Assembly: GCF_015476545.1 (NCBI RefSeq)
Contig: NZ_JADMKV010000003.1
Coordinates: forward strand, 23,528-87,527
Reading direction: 5' to 3'
Source of the DNA: Methylobacter sp. BlB1
GTDB taxonomy: Bacteria > Pseudomonadota > Gammaproteobacteria > Methylococcales > Methylomonadaceae
Length of the DNA: 64,000 bases
The position numbers were made by a program, and so were the translations under genes. Below, one piece after another: positions 32,468 through 38,766 of the stretch. The notes under the pieces were generated by a model. The model was not told where the DNA came from and did not search any database. It saw only the letters and a program-made list of their open reading frames with translations. Every line of letters begins with the position of its first letter. The first letter of the stretch is position 1.

Positions 32468-32866
32468 ATGGCTTTAATTACTTGGACAGCTGCACAATTC
32501 GGCACTAATGTAGGCTTCGCTGATGAAGAGCATCAAATTCTGTTTGATAAATTGAATAAATTATATGATCTGGCAACCGGTGGCGCAGACCGTTCCGCTG
32601 TGGGTGCCCAACTGGATGATTTGATCTCTTATGTCGTAGGGCATTTTGCTCATGAAGAAAGAGAAATGCTGGCAAAAGACTTCAGTAATTACACTGCCCA
32701 CAAGGCCGAGCATGAGGCTTTAATCGGTATATGCGCCGGGCTGCAAACAAAATTTCATGCCGGCGAGGCCGAAGTTACTGAAGAAGTCGGTCAAATGGTG
32801 AAAGGTTGGTTGGATAACCACATCCCTGTATTTGATAAGGCTTATGCCGATGCATTGAATAGCTGA
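32468..32866 (+). CDS. Bacteriohemerythrin
   Basis: 132 residues from ATG 32468 (ribosome site GAGGAG). All seven di-iron ligands of the hemerythrin fold are present: His22, His59 and Glu63 (HFAHE), His78 and His82 (HKAEH), His118 and Asp123 (HIPVFD). Single-domain bacteriohemerythrins bind O2 reversibly and are thought to deliver it to membrane methane monooxygenase in methanotrophs. The gene is monocistronic, with an FNR-like promoter and a strong terminator. Confidence 0.95.
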   Translation: MALITWTAAQFGTNVGFADEEHQILFDKLNKLYDLATGGADRSAVGAQLDDLISYVVGHFAHEEREMLAKDFSNYTAHKAEHEALIGICAGLQTKFHAGEAEVTEEVGQMVKGWLDNHIPVFDKAYADALNS

Positions 32867-32889
32867 GGAATAGTCATTCCATAAGTCTA

Positions 32890-32926
32890 AAAAGGCTTGT
32901 GAAGCGATGTTTCACAAGCCTTTTTT
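32890..32926 (+). terminator. Rho-independent terminator of the hemerythrin gene
   Basis: A perfect 14 bp stem (32890-32903 with 32911-32924) ends in a run of six T. Confidence 0.92.
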
Positions 32927-33121: not shown

Positions 33122-33859
33122 ATGATTATTTGCCAGAAATTGATTACTTGCGGTGAGGGACAAAATGACACTCATGGATTCCACGAGTGGAATAATATTT
33201 TTCCGCCATCAGATTCGGATGCTTTTAGTTTTGTCGATAACGGATTACCTGATCAGGTCTTAAGAAATCTTGTTTTTCGCATTTCCAGAAAGCCCAGGCA
33301 ATTAATTACTCATATTCAGCGTATCTATTATTGTTACCATGCAAATTTATCGGAACAGCTTTTTGCCGCGCTTGTTGATTTTCTGGTTATTTTAGAACGG
33401 CGCGGCGCGGACATCAGTCGGCGCATGATAATCGGGACAAGCTCCAAATTATCTCGGGAGCATTATAAGTCGCTAAAGGCATTTATGACGAACGAAATGG
33501 ATGTTGCACTGTTAGAAGGAAATCAATATTCCATTTTCACAAAAGGGCTGCTCGGTACTCAAAACCTAGTGCAGCAGGTCATCTCTTCAGATGAACAAGC
33601 CTATGATCCGTTGGATTTGGCGCGTGATTATATTGAATATAGTCAGCTATCCGAGGCAAAAGATGTGCTGGAAAACGCTATCATAAACGAACCGCACAGG
33701 CTGGAGTTACATCAGAGCTTGTTAGAACTTTATAAATCAACACAGGATATTTCAGGATTGAAAAAAATGGTTGAATTTTTCGCCAGCTTGAATATACCTA
33801 AACCTGATGGTTGGGATGAATTAATGACGCTTTTCATGAGCGCTAGCAATGAACGATAA
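33122..33859 (+). CDS. FimV-like TPR protein, first gene of a GTPase/roadblock operon
   Basis: 245 residues, no signal peptide or membrane segment. The N-terminal 130 residues are not recognised. The C-terminal part (DPLDLARDYIEYSQLSEAKD, LENAIINEPHRLELHQSLLE, and a WDELMTLF end) parallels the cytoplasmic TPR of FimV encoded at 13417 (VYLAYGRYQQAEELMRHAI, EQPDRDECMLKLLEIFY). This suggests a soluble adaptor using the same protein-interaction fold as the FimV polarity hub. A GAGAG ribosome site precedes ATG 33122. It overlaps the next gene by 11 bases. The role is inferred. Confidence 0.75.
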   Translation: MIICQKLITCGEGQNDTHGFHEWNNIFPPSDSDAFSFVDNGLPDQVLRNLVFRISRKPRQLITHIQRIYYCYHANLSEQLFAALVDFLVILERRGADISRRMIIGTSSKLSREHYKSLKAFMTNEMDVALLEGNQYSIFTKGLLGTQNLVQQVISSDEQAYDPLDLARDYIEYSQLSEAKDVLENAIINEPHRLELHQSLLELYKSTQDISGLKKMVEFFASLNIPKPDGWDELMTLFMSASNER

Positions 33860-34997
33860 ACGCAAAAGCTCTTTAAAAGTTGCGCTCCACTGCATGGATG
33901 GGCGCACTTATAAAACAATGGTGATGTATCTTCAAGGTCCTTGCAAAGGAGCCGCGGCTGTCGTTGAAGATTTGGACGCTGAAGTCGATATAATTGATGC
34001 CGATTCCATCAATGCCAAAGCATTGCTTGAACAGAAATTGGCTGAGAATTCTAGCAGGCCCATTATTGTATTATCTTTGCAGGAACTGAAACTGGATAAT
34101 GCATTGTATGTAAGAAAACCGATCAAGACGGTCGAGATGTTAGAGGCCTTGAGCAAAGCCGAAGCTTTGTTGGCTGTGAAGCAGAAATCGAATGAAAATG
34201 TTCAGACTAGCAAGAAGCTGTTTATAAATACGGATGAGCGCAAAAAGACATCCAAACATCAAACGGCGATGCATCTTGATGAAGGGAATTTCAATGCGTT
34301 TATAGGTTCCATTCCTGGTCTGGATGTAAATGATCCGAAGCAATTTCCCAATGCTTCTTATAATCCCAAAGAATATTTTCAGGGCTATTTTCAGTCCGCT
34401 TGCCTTATAGCGCAGACAAAAAAGCAGGTATTACATCTTAACTCTGGCTGGAAGTCGCTGATTATCTTCCCTCATAATCATGAAATCTGGTTCGATGCGG
34501 ATGACAAACAGCTGAGGTCGTTTGCCGGCTTACCAATAAAAAGCCTGTCAGGCGCAGGCATGTCGCTTACTCCGGCCAGCGCACATGCCTTATCTGCCAA
34601 CAGAGAGTTGGATAAATTCCACAATGTGGACGCCTTTTTATGGAAACTGGCCGTATGGTCATCCAGAGGCCGCTATCCGGTTGCCCTGGATATTGATAGG
34701 CCGGTTTTTTTAAAACACTGGCCGAACTTTACGCGTCTCATTGTTACGCCCCATGCATTAAGGATTTCGGCATTGCTTATAGCGGGGCCGAGAACCTTAC
34801 CTGATATTGCTGAAACTTTAAAAATTAAACCTCAATATGTATTTGTTTTTATCAGCGCAGCGCATGCACTTGGCTTGGTTAAACAAGCTAAACGGCAATC
34901 CGATGAAATTATCCAGCCGCCAGCTATCAAGAAAAATACTGAGCGGCAGGGATTATTAACTCGAATTCTTAGCAAATTACGCGGAAACAAATCATAA
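33849..34997 (+). CDS. PatA-like protein with C-terminal winged helix
   Basis: 382 residues, soluble. Residues 1-130 look like a degenerate receiver-type alpha/beta domain (VALHCMDGRTYKTMVMYLQG, PIIVLSLQELKLDNALYVRKP with a KP pair as in receivers) without a clear phospho-acceptor aspartate. The C-terminal third (ISALLIAGPRTLPDIAETLK, PQYVFVFISAAHALGLV) resembles the winged-helix segment of PATAN/DUF4388-type proteins found with Ras-like GTPases. A basic tail ends the protein. Translationally coupled to the gene before it, 13 bases from the GTPase gene. No named family is certain. Confidence 0.7.
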   Translation: MNDKRKSSLKVALHCMDGRTYKTMVMYLQGPCKGAAAVVEDLDAEVDIIDADSINAKALLEQKLAENSSRPIIVLSLQELKLDNALYVRKPIKTVEMLEALSKAEALLAVKQKSNENVQTSKKLFINTDERKKTSKHQTAMHLDEGNFNAFIGSIPGLDVNDPKQFPNASYNPKEYFQGYFQSACLIAQTKKQVLHLNSGWKSLIIFPHNHEIWFDADDKQLRSFAGLPIKSLSGAGMSLTPASAHALSANRELDKFHNVDAFLWKLAVWSSRGRYPVALDIDRPVFLKHWPNFTRLIVTPHALRISALLIAGPRTLPDIAETLKIKPQYVFVFISAAHALGLVKQAKRQSDEIIQPPAIKKNTERQGLLTRILSKLRGNKS

Positions 34998-35010
34998 AGT
35001 TAGGAACAAT

Positions 35011-35547
35011 ATGAGCCAATACAAAATCATCTTTACCGGTCCTGTTGGCGCTGGTAAAACAACAGCTATTGAATCAATAAGCGATGTGCCGCCGGTTAAA
35101 ACGGACGCGGCTGCCAGCGATATGACAAAGAACAAAAAAGCATCAACCACTGTCGCCATGGATTACGGAATCATGAATCTCGCCGGCGGTGAGAAGATTC
35201 ACCTTTATGGTACCCCTGGGCAGGAACGCTTTGACTTTATGTGGGATATTCTTACTACAGGCGGCATAGGACTGATTTTGTTGCTTGATAATACCCGAGC
35301 GGATCCTTTCCAGGATATGAAGTTTTTTTTGGATTCGTTTCAGTCGTTTATAGCAAAAACGAATGTAGCCATCGGTGTAACGCAGATGGATCTGAGCGAT
35401 AAGCCTGCCATCAATGATTATCATGTCCAACTGCAAGGAATGGGGCTCAATCCGCCGGTGTTCTCTGTGGATGCTCGCGTTAAAAATGATGTATCTATTT
35501 TAGTGCAGTCTTTATTGTACTCCTTGGACCCTGAACTCGAGGAGTAA
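35011..35547 (+). CDS. Ras-like small GTPase (COG2229/MglA-related)
   Basis: 178 residues. P-loop GPVGAGKTT at residues 10-18; switch I TTVAMDYG; switch II with LYGTPGQERF, where the usual DxxG aspartate is replaced by the GTPGQ form typical of the roadblock-associated prokaryotic GTPases; a G4-like TQMD in place of NKxD. These are features of the COG2229 group, related in role to MglA, which sets cell polarity. The partner roadblock genes follow at once. It probably acts as a GTP switch at the membrane or cell pole; the effector is unknown. Confidence 0.88.
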   Translation: MSQYKIIFTGPVGAGKTTAIESISDVPPVKTDAAASDMTKNKKASTTVAMDYGIMNLAGGEKIHLYGTPGQERFDFMWDILTTGGIGLILLLDNTRADPFQDMKFFLDSFQSFIAKTNVAIGVTQMDLSDKPAINDYHVQLQGMGLNPPVFSVDARVKNDVSILVQSLLYSLDPELEE

Positions 35548-35550
35548 CGT

Positions 35551-36189
35551 ATGAGCAACTATGTCTTGACGGAAGGATTGCATTTGTATCCGACTCCAGC
35601 TGGCGCTTATTATGCAGCCTGTTCTGTCAATAAGGATAAAACCCGGCAGTTCTTGAGAGCCTTGTTATTACAGGAGAAAACCCCAGCGCTTAACTTAGCC
35701 AATTTGCGGAAATTAATGGACCAGCATGAAGAAGCAAAATGCCTGGAACTGTTGCATCATTGCCAAAAATTAGGTTGGGTTCAAGGAATTGATACTGCAC
35801 TGCATTATCCGCAGGATGCACTTGAAGCTATTCTGCCTGATCTATTAAGTAAAATTTCGGAAAATGGCAAGGTGCTCCTGGCGGACAGTCAAGGTTTCTA
35901 TCTGTCCAGCCATGGGTTTCCGCATGAAGTTGCTGAAGAGCTATCGGCATTAAGCGCGGAAATTGCTACCATTCACGAGCGGCGGTCAGGTTTGTTGATG
36001 AACAATATGGGGCTGGCCAGCAACGCATGGGCGGTTATTGATGCGTACGGTAATAGCCAGCTTGGATTTTGGCCTTTATTTATTGGTAATAATCGTTTTG
36101 TTATTGCTATTTCAGGCATTCCCCATTTTAACCATCCGGAATTCGTTTCTCTGGTTTGGGCATTGAGCATGCGTTATGCCACTAAATAA
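35551..36189 (+). CDS. Winged-helix plus roadblock-like protein
   Basis: 212 residues, 3 bases after the GTPase gene. The N-terminal 95 residues are helical (FLRALLLQEKTPALNLANLR, CLELLHHCQKLGWVQGI) and may form a winged helix. The C-terminal half (GKVLLADSQGFYLSSHGF, EELSALSAEIATIHERR, and the final SLVWALSMRYA) has the alpha/beta order of a divergent roadblock/LC7 domain. This is a pattern-based reading, not a firm family match. It would be a candidate GTPase regulator. Confidence 0.65.
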   Translation: MSNYVLTEGLHLYPTPAGAYYAACSVNKDKTRQFLRALLLQEKTPALNLANLRKLMDQHEEAKCLELLHHCQKLGWVQGIDTALHYPQDALEAILPDLLSKISENGKVLLADSQGFYLSSHGFPHEVAEELSALSAEIATIHERRSGLLMNNMGLASNAWAVIDAYGNSQLGFWPLFIGNNRFVIAISGIPHFNHPEFVSLVWALSMRYATK

Positions 36190-36235
36190 CGCTTAATAAT
36201 TTATCAATTAATTATCAAAGATAAGAGACAAAAAT

Positions 36236-36598
36236 ATGCGCGCAGATATGCTAGCTTCAATACTCACAGAACTTAATGGCACTTCAGCAGATATTGAAGC
36301 ATCGGGAGTAATATCGACTGACGGTTTAATGATGGCTTCTGTATTGCCTGCTGGACTGGATGAAGATCGGGTAGGTGCTATGAGCGCCGCAATGCTGTCA
36401 TTGGGTGATCGTACTGCTCAGGAATTGGCAAGGGGATCACTAGAACAGGTTTTAATAAAAGGCGCCAAAGGTTATGTCCTGATGGTTTATGCCGGAAATG
36501 AATCGGTGTTAACCGTTTTGGCAAAACCTAATGCTAAGTTAGGCTTGATTTTCCTGGACGTAAAACGGGCTGCGAGCAGTATTTCTGAATTGCTGTAG
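36236..36598 (+). CDS. Roadblock/LC7 domain protein (MglB-like)
   Basis: 120 residues forming a single roadblock domain: helix 1, then the SGVISTDGLMMASVLP strand pair, helix 2 (VGAMSAAMLSLGDRTAQEL), and the VLIKGAKGYVLMVYAG and SVLTVLAKPNAKLGLIFLDV strands. Roadblock proteins such as MglB bind and activate Ras-like GTPases. It is the last gene of the five-gene block, 46 bases after the preceding one. Confidence 0.9.
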   Translation: MRADMLASILTELNGTSADIEASGVISTDGLMMASVLPAGLDEDRVGAMSAAMLSLGDRTAQELARGSLEQVLIKGAKGYVLMVYAGNESVLTVLAKPNAKLGLIFLDVKRAASSISELL

Positions 36599-36757
36599 GG
36601 ACTTTATTTAGCACAGAATTAACTGGTTTTAAATATCCTACAGTTATTTGTCTAAATAACTATAGGGTTTATATGATAAAAACGAATAATTATTGAAATA
36701 TTGCCAATAATATTATTGAGGTAATAAGTTCAATATATTCAATGCCAGGAAAAATAA

Positions 36758-37315
36758 ATGTCATTAAATTTCAACGAATTAATTGAATATGCCAAGGCAT
36801 TTTCCGGTTTGACGCCTGAGCTTGAGGCATGCCTGAAAGATATCGGTCCGGAAATCACACCACAACTGCAAGCTGTCACCGATTCCTTTTATGACCAGCT
36901 AGCTACCATACCTGAGACCGCTAAATATTTGGAAGGTCGCGTGGCAACTTTAAAAATAGCCCATTTAAGATGGATGACAGGGTTGTTTTCCAGCAATATC
37001 GATGCTGAGTTTGCACGAAGCATGTATCAGGTAGGTGATATTCATGTCAAAGTCAATTTGCCTGTTGAATTTATGGCGGGTGCTATGACCTTGATCAATA
37101 ATGAACTCACCCGCATAGTTATCGAGACATTCGGACATAATAGTGAAAAATGCACGAAAGCGCTGCAAGCGATCGCTTCGGTTACAGGGCTTGCGCTAAT
37201 GATAATGCAACAGTCCTATCAAGAATCCACACTTGCCGAAGAACTGGAGAAATTTCTCACTATTTCTGGCATGAGCAGAACGCTATTTGCCAATCTTGCC
37301 AAGGCGTATAAATAA
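36758..37315 (+). CDS. Stand-alone protoglobin (globin-coupled-sensor type domain)
   Basis: 185 residues with a protoglobin-type globin and no output domain. The segment LKIAHLRWMTGLFSSNID and the following VGDIHVKVNLPVEFMAGAM match the F-helix region of globin-coupled sensors, with the histidine of GDIH as the likely proximal haem ligand. Such domains sense or bind O2, NO or CO. With no kinase, cyclase or methyl-accepting part, it would signal through a partner, perhaps the adjacent GTPase or PAS proteins. Followed by an unusually long terminator stem. Confidence 0.82.
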   Translation: MSLNFNELIEYAKAFSGLTPELEACLKDIGPEITPQLQAVTDSFYDQLATIPETAKYLEGRVATLKIAHLRWMTGLFSSNIDAEFARSMYQVGDIHVKVNLPVEFMAGAMTLINNELTRIVIETFGHNSEKCTKALQAIASVTGLALMIMQQSYQESTLAEELEKFLTISGMSRTLFANLAKAYK

Positions 37316-37332
37316 TCAAAAATTAACTCCCC

Positions 37333-37376
37333 GTATCAATACTCAACCATTTCTGAAAATGGTTGAGTATTGATAC
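37333..37376 (+). terminator. 20 bp perfect-stem hairpin after the protoglobin gene
   Basis: Bases 37333-37352 pair perfectly with 37357-37376 around a CTGA loop. There is no T run, but the stem is long enough to protect the mRNA end or stop transcription. A second small hairpin (CTGCTG/CAGCAG, 37385-37401) follows. Confidence 0.7.
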
Positions 37377-37406
37377 CCTTGATTCTGCTGCGAAACAGCA
37401 GCGTTC

Positions 37407-37420
37407 TTGACCTAGATCAC
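37407..37420 (+). promoter_or_regulatory. FNR/ANR-type box upstream of the PAS gene
   Basis: TTGAC-CTAG-ATCAC matches the FNR consensus at eight of ten positions. A TATTCT -10 element at 37442-37447 lies 21 bases after it, exactly the spacing seen at the hemerythrin promoter. Confidence 0.6.
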
Positions 37421-37524
37421 AAGAAATAGTAACGACTCAATTATTCTATGCGTCTACATTGAATTATTTGCCCTATAAAGTTAAGGCTCAGTTTATCGGG
37501 ACGCTACCAGAATGGAGATATACA

Positions 37525-38001
37525 ATGCTTTATGATATGAAACCTGAGGATATAATCGGTGATTATCAGGAGGTTACTCTGAATTTATATGGCGGTATAA
37601 AGCGTAAGGTTTTATATACCCAAATTGAGACACCCTATCCTGACGGTAAACTGATCGTTTCAACGACAGATCCGGACGGCATTATTACTCATGTAAATCA
37701 AGCTTTTATTGAAATGTCCGGATACACCGAAGATGAGCTGATCGGTGCGCCTCATTCGATTCTCAGACATCCTGATATGCCCTCGGTAGCGTTCAAGGAT
37801 TTGTGGGATACTGTGCAGCAAGGCAATAAATGGCAGGGATTTGTTAAGAACTTGCGTAAGGACGGCGGTTATTACTGGGTTAAGGCTACCGTTATTCCCA
37901 ATGTAAGAAAAGGCAAGGTCGTTGGCTATACCTCTGTGCGCCGTAAGCCTTCACGAACTAAAGTGGAAGAATGCGCCAAGCTTTATCCGACCTTGTTTTA
38001 A
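37525..38001 (+). CDS. Stand-alone Aer-type PAS protein
   Basis: 158 residues from ATG 37525 (ribosome site GGAGATATAC). A single PAS domain of the Aer kind: GIITHVNQAFIEMSGYTEDELIG, then RHPDMPSVAFKDLWDTVQQG, KWQGFVKNLRKDGGYYWVKA and VVGYTSVRRKPS. Aer PAS domains bind FAD and report redox or energy state, but here no chemoreceptor or kinase part follows. An in-frame TTG at 37459 is less likely. Probably co-transcribed with the PhnD-like gene 18 bases downstream. Confidence 0.88.
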   Translation: MLYDMKPEDIIGDYQEVTLNLYGGIKRKVLYTQIETPYPDGKLIVSTTDPDGIITHVNQAFIEMSGYTEDELIGAPHSILRHPDMPSVAFKDLWDTVQQGNKWQGFVKNLRKDGGYYWVKATVIPNVRKGKVVGYTSVRRKPSRTKVEECAKLYPTLF

Positions 38002-38019
38002 CCTATACGGAGCCTAGTT

Positions 38020-38766
38020 ATGCCGAACATGTTCACAGTCAGTCCAGATTTTCCTCCTGACCATATTTCCGGCTGGTATATCTTTAATACCTGGCTTCAA
38101 AAACAGAGCGGAGAGGCCATTCATTTGGAAATGTATGACAACTTTCCCAAGCAGAGAGAAGCTATCACCCAGGATAAAATTGATTTGATTTATGCTAATC
38201 CATTTGATGCCGCCATGCTGGTACGCGAAAAAGGTTTTTTACCTTTGGTAAGGCCGGCCGGTAAATCTGATGAGGCCATTATCGCCATTAATGCCCAAAA
38301 TACTGTGGATGATGTCGCTCATTTGTCGCCGGGTATTCGAGTTGCCGTTACTGAAGATCCTGATGTTCATTTGATGGGCATGATAATGCTGGAAGCTGGG
38401 GATTTGGATGAAAGCAATATAGAGACAATGGTTTGCGATTCGTATGTTCTGATTGCAAAACAGTTACTGCGCGGGAACGCCGATGTCGGTATTTTCTTGG
38501 CTGAAGCTTATGATAACTTATCAAATATCATTAAAAGTCAGCTAAAAGTGCTGGTCCGTAGCCAGATTAGTGTTGTCCATCATTCACTGATGATCGGGCC
38601 GAAATTGGCCGAAAAAAGAGCTGTCTTACAAAAATTGCTGGTCGACATGAATAATGATGAGAAAGGGCGGGGTGTTCTGGAAAGTCTGGGTTTTGACGCC
38701 TGGATGCCTGTCGATGATGAGGAAATGGAATTCATGATTGATCTGATGGATACTTTAAATACATAA
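38020..38766 (+). CDS. Cytoplasmic PhnD-like substrate-binding protein
   Basis: 248 residues resembling periplasmic phosphate/phosphonate-binding proteins (IDLIYANPFDAAMLVREKGF, LSPGIRVAVTEDPDVHLMGM, FLAEAYDNLSNIIKSQLKVL). It lacks any signal peptide or membrane segment and no ABC permease or ATPase is nearby, so it is probably a cytoplasmic ligand sensor rather than a transport component. An ACGGAG ribosome site precedes the ATG. It sits directly behind the PAS gene, presumably in one operon. The ligand is unknown. Confidence 0.75.
   Translation: MPNMFTVSPDFPPDHISGWYIFNTWLQKQSGEAIHLEMYDNFPKQREAITQDKIDLIYANPFDAAMLVREKGFLPLVRPAGKSDEAIIAINAQNTVDDVAHLSPGIRVAVTEDPDVHLMGMIMLEAGDLDESNIETMVCDSYVLIAKQLLRGNADVGIFLAEAYDNLSNIIKSQLKVLVRSQISVVHHSLMIGPKLAEKRAVLQKLLVDMNNDEKGRGVLESLGFDAWMPVDDEEMEFMIDLMDTLNT

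Follow-up and report, generated by a model that had tools for sequence, protein, structure and literature searches.

Stand-alone cytosolic sensors as candidate inputs to a putative Group 3 MglA-type GTPase/Roadblock operon in Methylobacter sp. BlB1

What do three single-domain sensor proteins act on when they are encoded in a row with no output of their own? This question is raised by a locus of Methylobacter sp. BlB1 in which a protoglobin, an Aer-type PAS protein and a PhnD-like protein follow a GTPase/Roadblock operon. A preliminary description of the window (the whole 64,000-nucleotide stretch of DNA that was analyzed) had proposed that the three, which lie next to GTPase/Roadblock genes and a hemerythrin, feed one signalling device through protein contacts. 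The three sensors in a row and the upstream GTPase, Roadblock and hemerythrin genes were indeed all present. Eight genes, for p2, p3, the small GTPase, p5, Roadblock, protoglobin, PAS and the PhnD-fold protein, lie in line on the plus strand at 33122-38766, and the open reading frame at 35551-36189 (p5) encodes a second Roadblock-fold protein that had been missed. The features are listed below with the evidence in brackets.

32889-32925, plus strand: intrinsic terminator at the hemerythrin/p2 boundary of the unit (-22.8 kcal/mol, z -7.3, T run)
33122-33859, plus strand: p2, TPR-type protein, first gene of the core operon (C-terminal TPR-like stretch; first position conserved among relatives)
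33849-34997, plus strand: p3, receiver-like N terminus and winged-helix-like C terminus (AF2 model, Foldseek, invariant residues)
35011-35547, plus strand: MglA-type small GTPase (Pfam; motifs GTPGQ, TQ[M/T]D and D[A/P]R)
35551-36189, plus strand: p5, winged-helix-like N terminus and Roadblock-fold domain (AF2, Foldseek)
36236-36598, plus strand: Roadblock protein, MglB-like, 120 aa (PF03259, 56 bits)
36758-37315, plus strand: single-domain protoglobin, 185 aa, with a conserved C-terminal tail (PF11563, conserved residues)
37333-37376, no strand: 20-bp perfect inverted repeat between the protoglobin and PAS genes (one place only in the genome)
37525-38001, plus strand: Aer-type PAS protein, 158 aa (PAS_3, match to 8dik; start from the family alignment)
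38020-38766, plus strand: cytoplasmic PhnD-fold protein, 248 aa (PF12974; no signal peptide or ABC partner)

The core of this operon matches the Group 3 MglA systems defined by Wuichet and Sogaard-Andersen (2014; PMC4316618) in its GTPase motifs, its receiver-like p3 and its one or two MglB-type proteins. In the available text of that paper, the Group 3 GTPase is characterized by GTPGQ, no Arg in G2, no Lys in G4 and DAR in G5, and its companions in beta- and gamma-Proteobacteria are a protein with a receiver-like N terminus and a winged-helix C terminus and one or two MglB-type proteins. In our alignment, GTPGQ and T46-T47 were kept in 21 of 21 GTPase rows, G4 read TQMD in 20 rows and TQTD in one, and G5 read D-A-R in 20 and D-P-R in one. 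Compared with the other 14 of 15 aligned rows, the Roadblock protein showed 70-97% identity. Sequence profile comparison of p5 with Robl gave no match, and its Roadblock identity rests on the fold: with the AF2 model (mean pLDDT 89), Roadblock/LC7 3kye and MglB were the top Foldseek matches. The best Foldseek matches of the p3 model were response-regulator receivers, with a probability of about 1 for single-domain ones and weak E values (0.005 to 0.05, none below 0.001). Residues D50, D52, S76, K90 and P91 of p3 were invariant in 24 of 24 rows, residues 301-346 form three helices and a strand in the AF2 model, and the C terminus matched Pfam HTH_20 at E 0.072, below the cut-off. The C-terminal stretch of p2 holds TPR-like repeats. 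As far as its available text goes (PMC4316618), the Group 3 account differs from the operon described here in that it mentions neither an input nor a partner of the PAS, PhnD, protoglobin or TPR kind.

Two variants of the core proteins were seen among relatives. One locus (L041:9002-10993) encodes a 663-aa p3 with its N-terminal part duplicated, and two others (L046 and L050) carry a second GTPase gene, 43% identical, divergent from the operon on the opposite strand and about 5 kb upstream of PhnD.

Of the three sensors, PAS and PhnD proved to be conserved members of the operon, in keeping with the link of the sensors to the GTPase operon in the preliminary description, whereas the protoglobin is optional. 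The core order is TPR protein, receiver/winged-helix protein, MglA-type GTPase, Roadblock-fold protein, Roadblock, PAS and PhnD. With all stop-to-stop frames taken, both here and in the named loci below, PAS lay immediately upstream of PhnD in each of the 32 family loci that were located by their PhnD ortholog. The seven core genes were complete in 26, including one (L053) whose p3 and GTPase genes are broken. A broader set of named loci (80 loci of 319 relatives in 84,980 species, some genomes being shared with the family set) came from Methylococcales, Chromatiales, Thiotrichaceae, Amphritea, Neptunomonas, Methylophaga, Halothiobacillaceae and others. Where a named locus extended 600 bp or more upstream (79 loci), PAS always lay directly 5' of PhnD; all seven core genes were there in 51 of the 64 loci that reached 5.5 kb or more.

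PhnD and the core, with p5 as its marker, were not independently distributed across 301 genomes of the order: 126 genomes had both PhnD and p5, one had PhnD only, 10 had p5 only and 164 had neither, low-scoring PhnD ortholog fragments (e.g., in G019) being counted as absent. PhnD orthologs at E 1e-70 or better were also found in 14 genomes outside the order (369 genomes of the class). In two genomes (G027 and G052) PAS-PhnD stands apart from the core, which is retained elsewhere in the genome, and at six loci (L348-L350 and L353-L355) the core stands with none of these sensors. This nested distribution, in which the core occurs without PAS-PhnD and the reverse is almost never seen, is what would be expected of an optional, core-dependent input.

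The PAS protein consists of a PAS domain alone in 158 aa (PAS_3, 61.5 bits), with no HAMP or chemoreceptor domain, in agreement with the initial reading of an Aer-like PAS without receptor. According to 29 aligned rows, it starts at ATG 37525 rather than at TTG 37459 of the listed open reading frame. Among solved structures it is closest to the Aer receptor's PAS domain (8dik, E 9.5e-41, 126 residues). The RHPDMP motif is well kept, with R, H, M and P in 29 of 29 rows and P and D in 28 of 29. The protein thus resembles Aer in its PAS domain, down to RHPDMP and the W-x-G / VKN region, but lacks the HAMP and the chemoreceptor signalling domain. It is probably a redox/oxygen input with FAD as cofactor.

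PF12974 spans the PhnD-fold protein from end to end (131 bits), and a conserved acidic tail ends it. The absence of a signal peptide, claimed beforehand, was borne out by frame length and by the hydropathy of orthologs. The open frame has 254 codons for a 248-aa protein and so leaves no room for a signal peptide, and hydropathy averaged over 11 residues peaked at 1.03 within the first 35 residues across 25 orthologs. In 96 of 134 loci, some of them from the same genome, the PhnD match was preceded by no more than 15 open codons; in the remaining 38, with a longer frame, no clear signal-peptide-like stretch was found by eye and hydropathy. A missed signal peptide was thus ruled out, and so were nearby ABC permease genes: the window holds none, and the first ABC permease domain (PF00528) to be met on the contig is about 48 kb off, outside the window. 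The S-T-S motif of PtxB and PhnD contacts phosph(on)ate. In 25 of 25 rows of the PhnD-fold protein, S-T-S-[GS] is replaced by P-[DN]-[VI], and because of this loss the protein may bind no such ligand. PhnD-type ABC binding proteins therefore share the PF12974 fold with it but differ in having a signal peptide, ABC partners and the S-T-S motif. A plasmid search with the protein gave one match only, at 28%.

Several variants of the PhnD gene were also noted. One Halothiobacillus-like genome encodes an additional, diverged PhnD-type protein between p5 and Roadblock (L118:7684-8418), and a Methylophaga locus (L201) holds a match similar to it. At L139, a PhnD-type match lies in a 397-aa frame upstream of p2. 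One genome (G003) has its PhnD gene cut to about 90 residues (L065:5680-5970) and retains PAS and the protoglobin.

The protoglobin likewise has no output domain, as had been stated: PF11563 (99.6 bits) covers residues 6-157 of 185, and a conserved C-terminal tail follows the globin fold. Residues Y45, H69, W72 and H96 were invariant in 11 of 11 rows. His96 aligned with a histidine in 2w31, a globin sensor from Geobacter; a proximal HisF8 of the Geobacter sensor is named in the title of a reference (PMC4476040). Globin-coupled sensors carry a protoglobin domain with the same proximal His and distal Tyr, and they and RsbR-type stressosome proteins (7o0i_B being a weak match) have a heme-globin input in common with the protein described here. 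In both, however, the output is on the same chain.

The idea of a fixed sensor trio had to be rejected, since the protoglobin is mostly absent from the operon and elsewhere occurs in operons without PAS-PhnD. It was found in the operon in only 7 of the 64 named loci, in certain lineages only; in Methylotuvimicrobium buryatense (L200), for instance, PAS-PhnD and the core are there, but the locus showed no protoglobin. The units are instead PAS-PhnD, always together, and a separable protoglobin-Roadblock. Single-domain protoglobins, defined as matches at E 1e-40 or better, occurred at 25 places in 121 family genomes. A Roadblock gene lay beside 17 of them, 7 in this operon and 10 in two-gene pairs with the Roadblock gene about 20 bp downstream; the other 8 had no Roadblock neighbour. 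One such pair is in the genome of the window (C195:1060-1992), which has exactly two Roadblock-profile matches, each beside a protoglobin. In other families, 6 of 8 strong protoglobins stood in the order p5-protoglobin-Roadblock or Roadblock-protoglobin, and five of these six (L340-L344) lay in operons lacking PAS-PhnD. Moreover, the core was present in 19 of 19 family genomes with a single-domain protoglobin versus 68 of 121 overall, with a hypergeometric P of 5e-6 that is deflated by shared ancestry, which makes all such co-occurrence values too small and overstates independence. Genomes with weak protoglobin matches only, mostly longer frames, had no such bias (core in 9 of 15). In a tree of 36 protoglobins, the operon copies corresponded to four changes on the best tree, of which well-supported branches force one. 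Repeated recruitment of the protoglobin into the operon is thus suggested by the sequences, not shown. Among open-licence papers, none paired roadblock with protoglobin and one paired it with "globin-coupled".

In the window, the protoglobin gene is set off from its neighbors by 159 and 209 bp and by a strong, 20-bp perfect hairpin, and it may therefore be transcribed apart. The inverted repeat (37333-37376) has no clear T run, and an imperfect form of it is found in M. luteus (L035). A promoter scan gave fewer sites than in shuffled sequences.

The hemerythrin, in turn, was rejected as a part of the system. The bacteriohemerythrin gene (32471-32866) lies upstream of the operon with its own strong terminator, which cuts it off from p2 as a separate unit, and it is present in only 2 of 32 family loci.

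Building on the observed gene order, conservation, co-occurrence, domain identities and cofactor residues, we favor, with moderate confidence, the hypothesis that the locus is a Group 3 MglA-type GTPase/Roadblock switch with exchangeable stand-alone cytosolic sensors as inputs. Its core would be the GTPase, Roadblock, the second Roadblock-fold protein p5, the receiver/winged-helix protein p3 and the TPR protein p2. One input would be the PAS protein, probably loaded with FAD and responding to redox state or oxygen, acting as a single pair with the PhnD-fold protein; the other, optional, would be the protoglobin, which may bind heme and, as ligands, O2, NO or CO, and would act on the Roadblock protein. 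The sensors would most likely contact the Roadblock/p5 dimers directly and thereby alter the rate of GTP hydrolysis by the GTPase. p3 and p2 may then read the GTPase state, with an output via transcription and/or via type IV pilus or polarity control. Pili are a candidate output in view of Snodgrassella, where a Group 3 system is known and where, in the available text of PMC11112851, mutations of an orphan mglB altered colony spreading, which was attributed to type IV pili.

The link of the sensors to the GTPase is less sure than that to Roadblock, since the GTPase is missing from some operons. Roadblock accompanied PAS-PhnD in 61 of the 64 named loci versus 51 for the GTPase, which was absent from the operon in 13, including the Amphritea-Neptunomonas group, where four genomes that were searched had only longer GTPase-like frames elsewhere. 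In Halothiobacillus (L205), PAS, PhnD, Roadblock and p5 are kept and the genome gave no GTPase match. These loci would fit PAS-PhnD being a sensory pair of its own, with Roadblock merely a docking scaffold and the GTPase not its target. We consider this unlikely, because the GTPase is in the same operon and in the same order in most loci. More improbable still is that the three are independent genes, neighbors by chance or common transcription, with the protoglobin serving in oxygen/NO protection or heme storage. The lineage-specific occurrence of the protoglobin, its flanking gaps and hairpin and its lone copies speak for this, but the co-occurrence of PhnD with the core in 126 of 127 genomes argues against it, as do the frequent Roadblock neighbors of the protoglobin and the pairing of the second copy in the window's own genome.

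Finally, the end-to-end PF12974 match would also suit a protein that carries or scavenges a ligand in the cytosol, a relic of transport. We give this very little credence: the substituted S-T-S motif and the lack of a signal peptide and of a permease gene in the window speak against it. So does the signalling context of a related domain, since the PhnD-type domain is also fused behind one to three STAS domains, adjoining SpoIIE-type phosphatases.

The favored reading of a GTPase/Roadblock switch with free sensors has parallels in known systems. Actinobacterial conservons (CvnABCD) likewise join Roadblock and an MglA-type GTPase in one sensory operon, but their input is a histidine-kinase-like sensor, in contrast to the free-standing cytosolic sensor domains found here. 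HGbRL of the methanotroph Methylacidiphilum, as described in the available text of PMC4476040, is a globin fused to a Roadblock domain. As here, a globin is coupled to Roadblock in a methanotroph, although HGbRL is a fusion with another globin class and in another phylum, and separate genes and a protoglobin are found here. This fusion independently supports the idea that a globin acts on Roadblock. The inputs of Group 3 MglA systems are unnamed in the available text of the defining paper (PMC4316618), and the operon supplies a short list of candidates. Since these have known cofactor chemistry (heme and probably flavin), the setting of a bacterial Ras-like switch becomes testable with purified proteins.

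Other sensors were seen next to the core in single cases: Roadblock is followed by a CZB domain protein in L351 and has a Bac_globin protein as its neighbor in L360, while L342 and L343 continue with GAF histidine kinases. The STAS-PhnD/SpoIIE pair was found inside the operon in L047 and, in L290 and L291, adjoining Roadblock. We tentatively raise the possibility that the Roadblock pair is a general gammaproteobacterial docking hub, through which free cytosolic sensors (PAS-PhnD, protoglobin, Bac_globin, CZB and SpoIIE/STAS-PhnD) might set one MglA-type GTPase. It could then be a bacterial counterpart of Ragulator-Rag sensing, and the PhnD fold a new class of cytosolic signalling adaptor. In any case, a solute-binding fold appears to be used inside the cell as a signalling part, free here and also fused to STAS domains. 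Among open-licence papers, none joined PhnD, cytoplasmic, signal peptide and roadblock, and none joined STAS domain with phosphonate, substrate-binding protein and SpoIIE.

The STAS-PhnD/SpoIIE genes themselves (L047:6929-10773; L066-L073; L290; L291) make up a partner-switch pair with a solute-binding fold and occur in several family genomes. In addition, a 5'-nucleotidase-like gene (PF06189, checked in L036:12506-13399) lies 3' of PhnD in 7 of 32 family loci.
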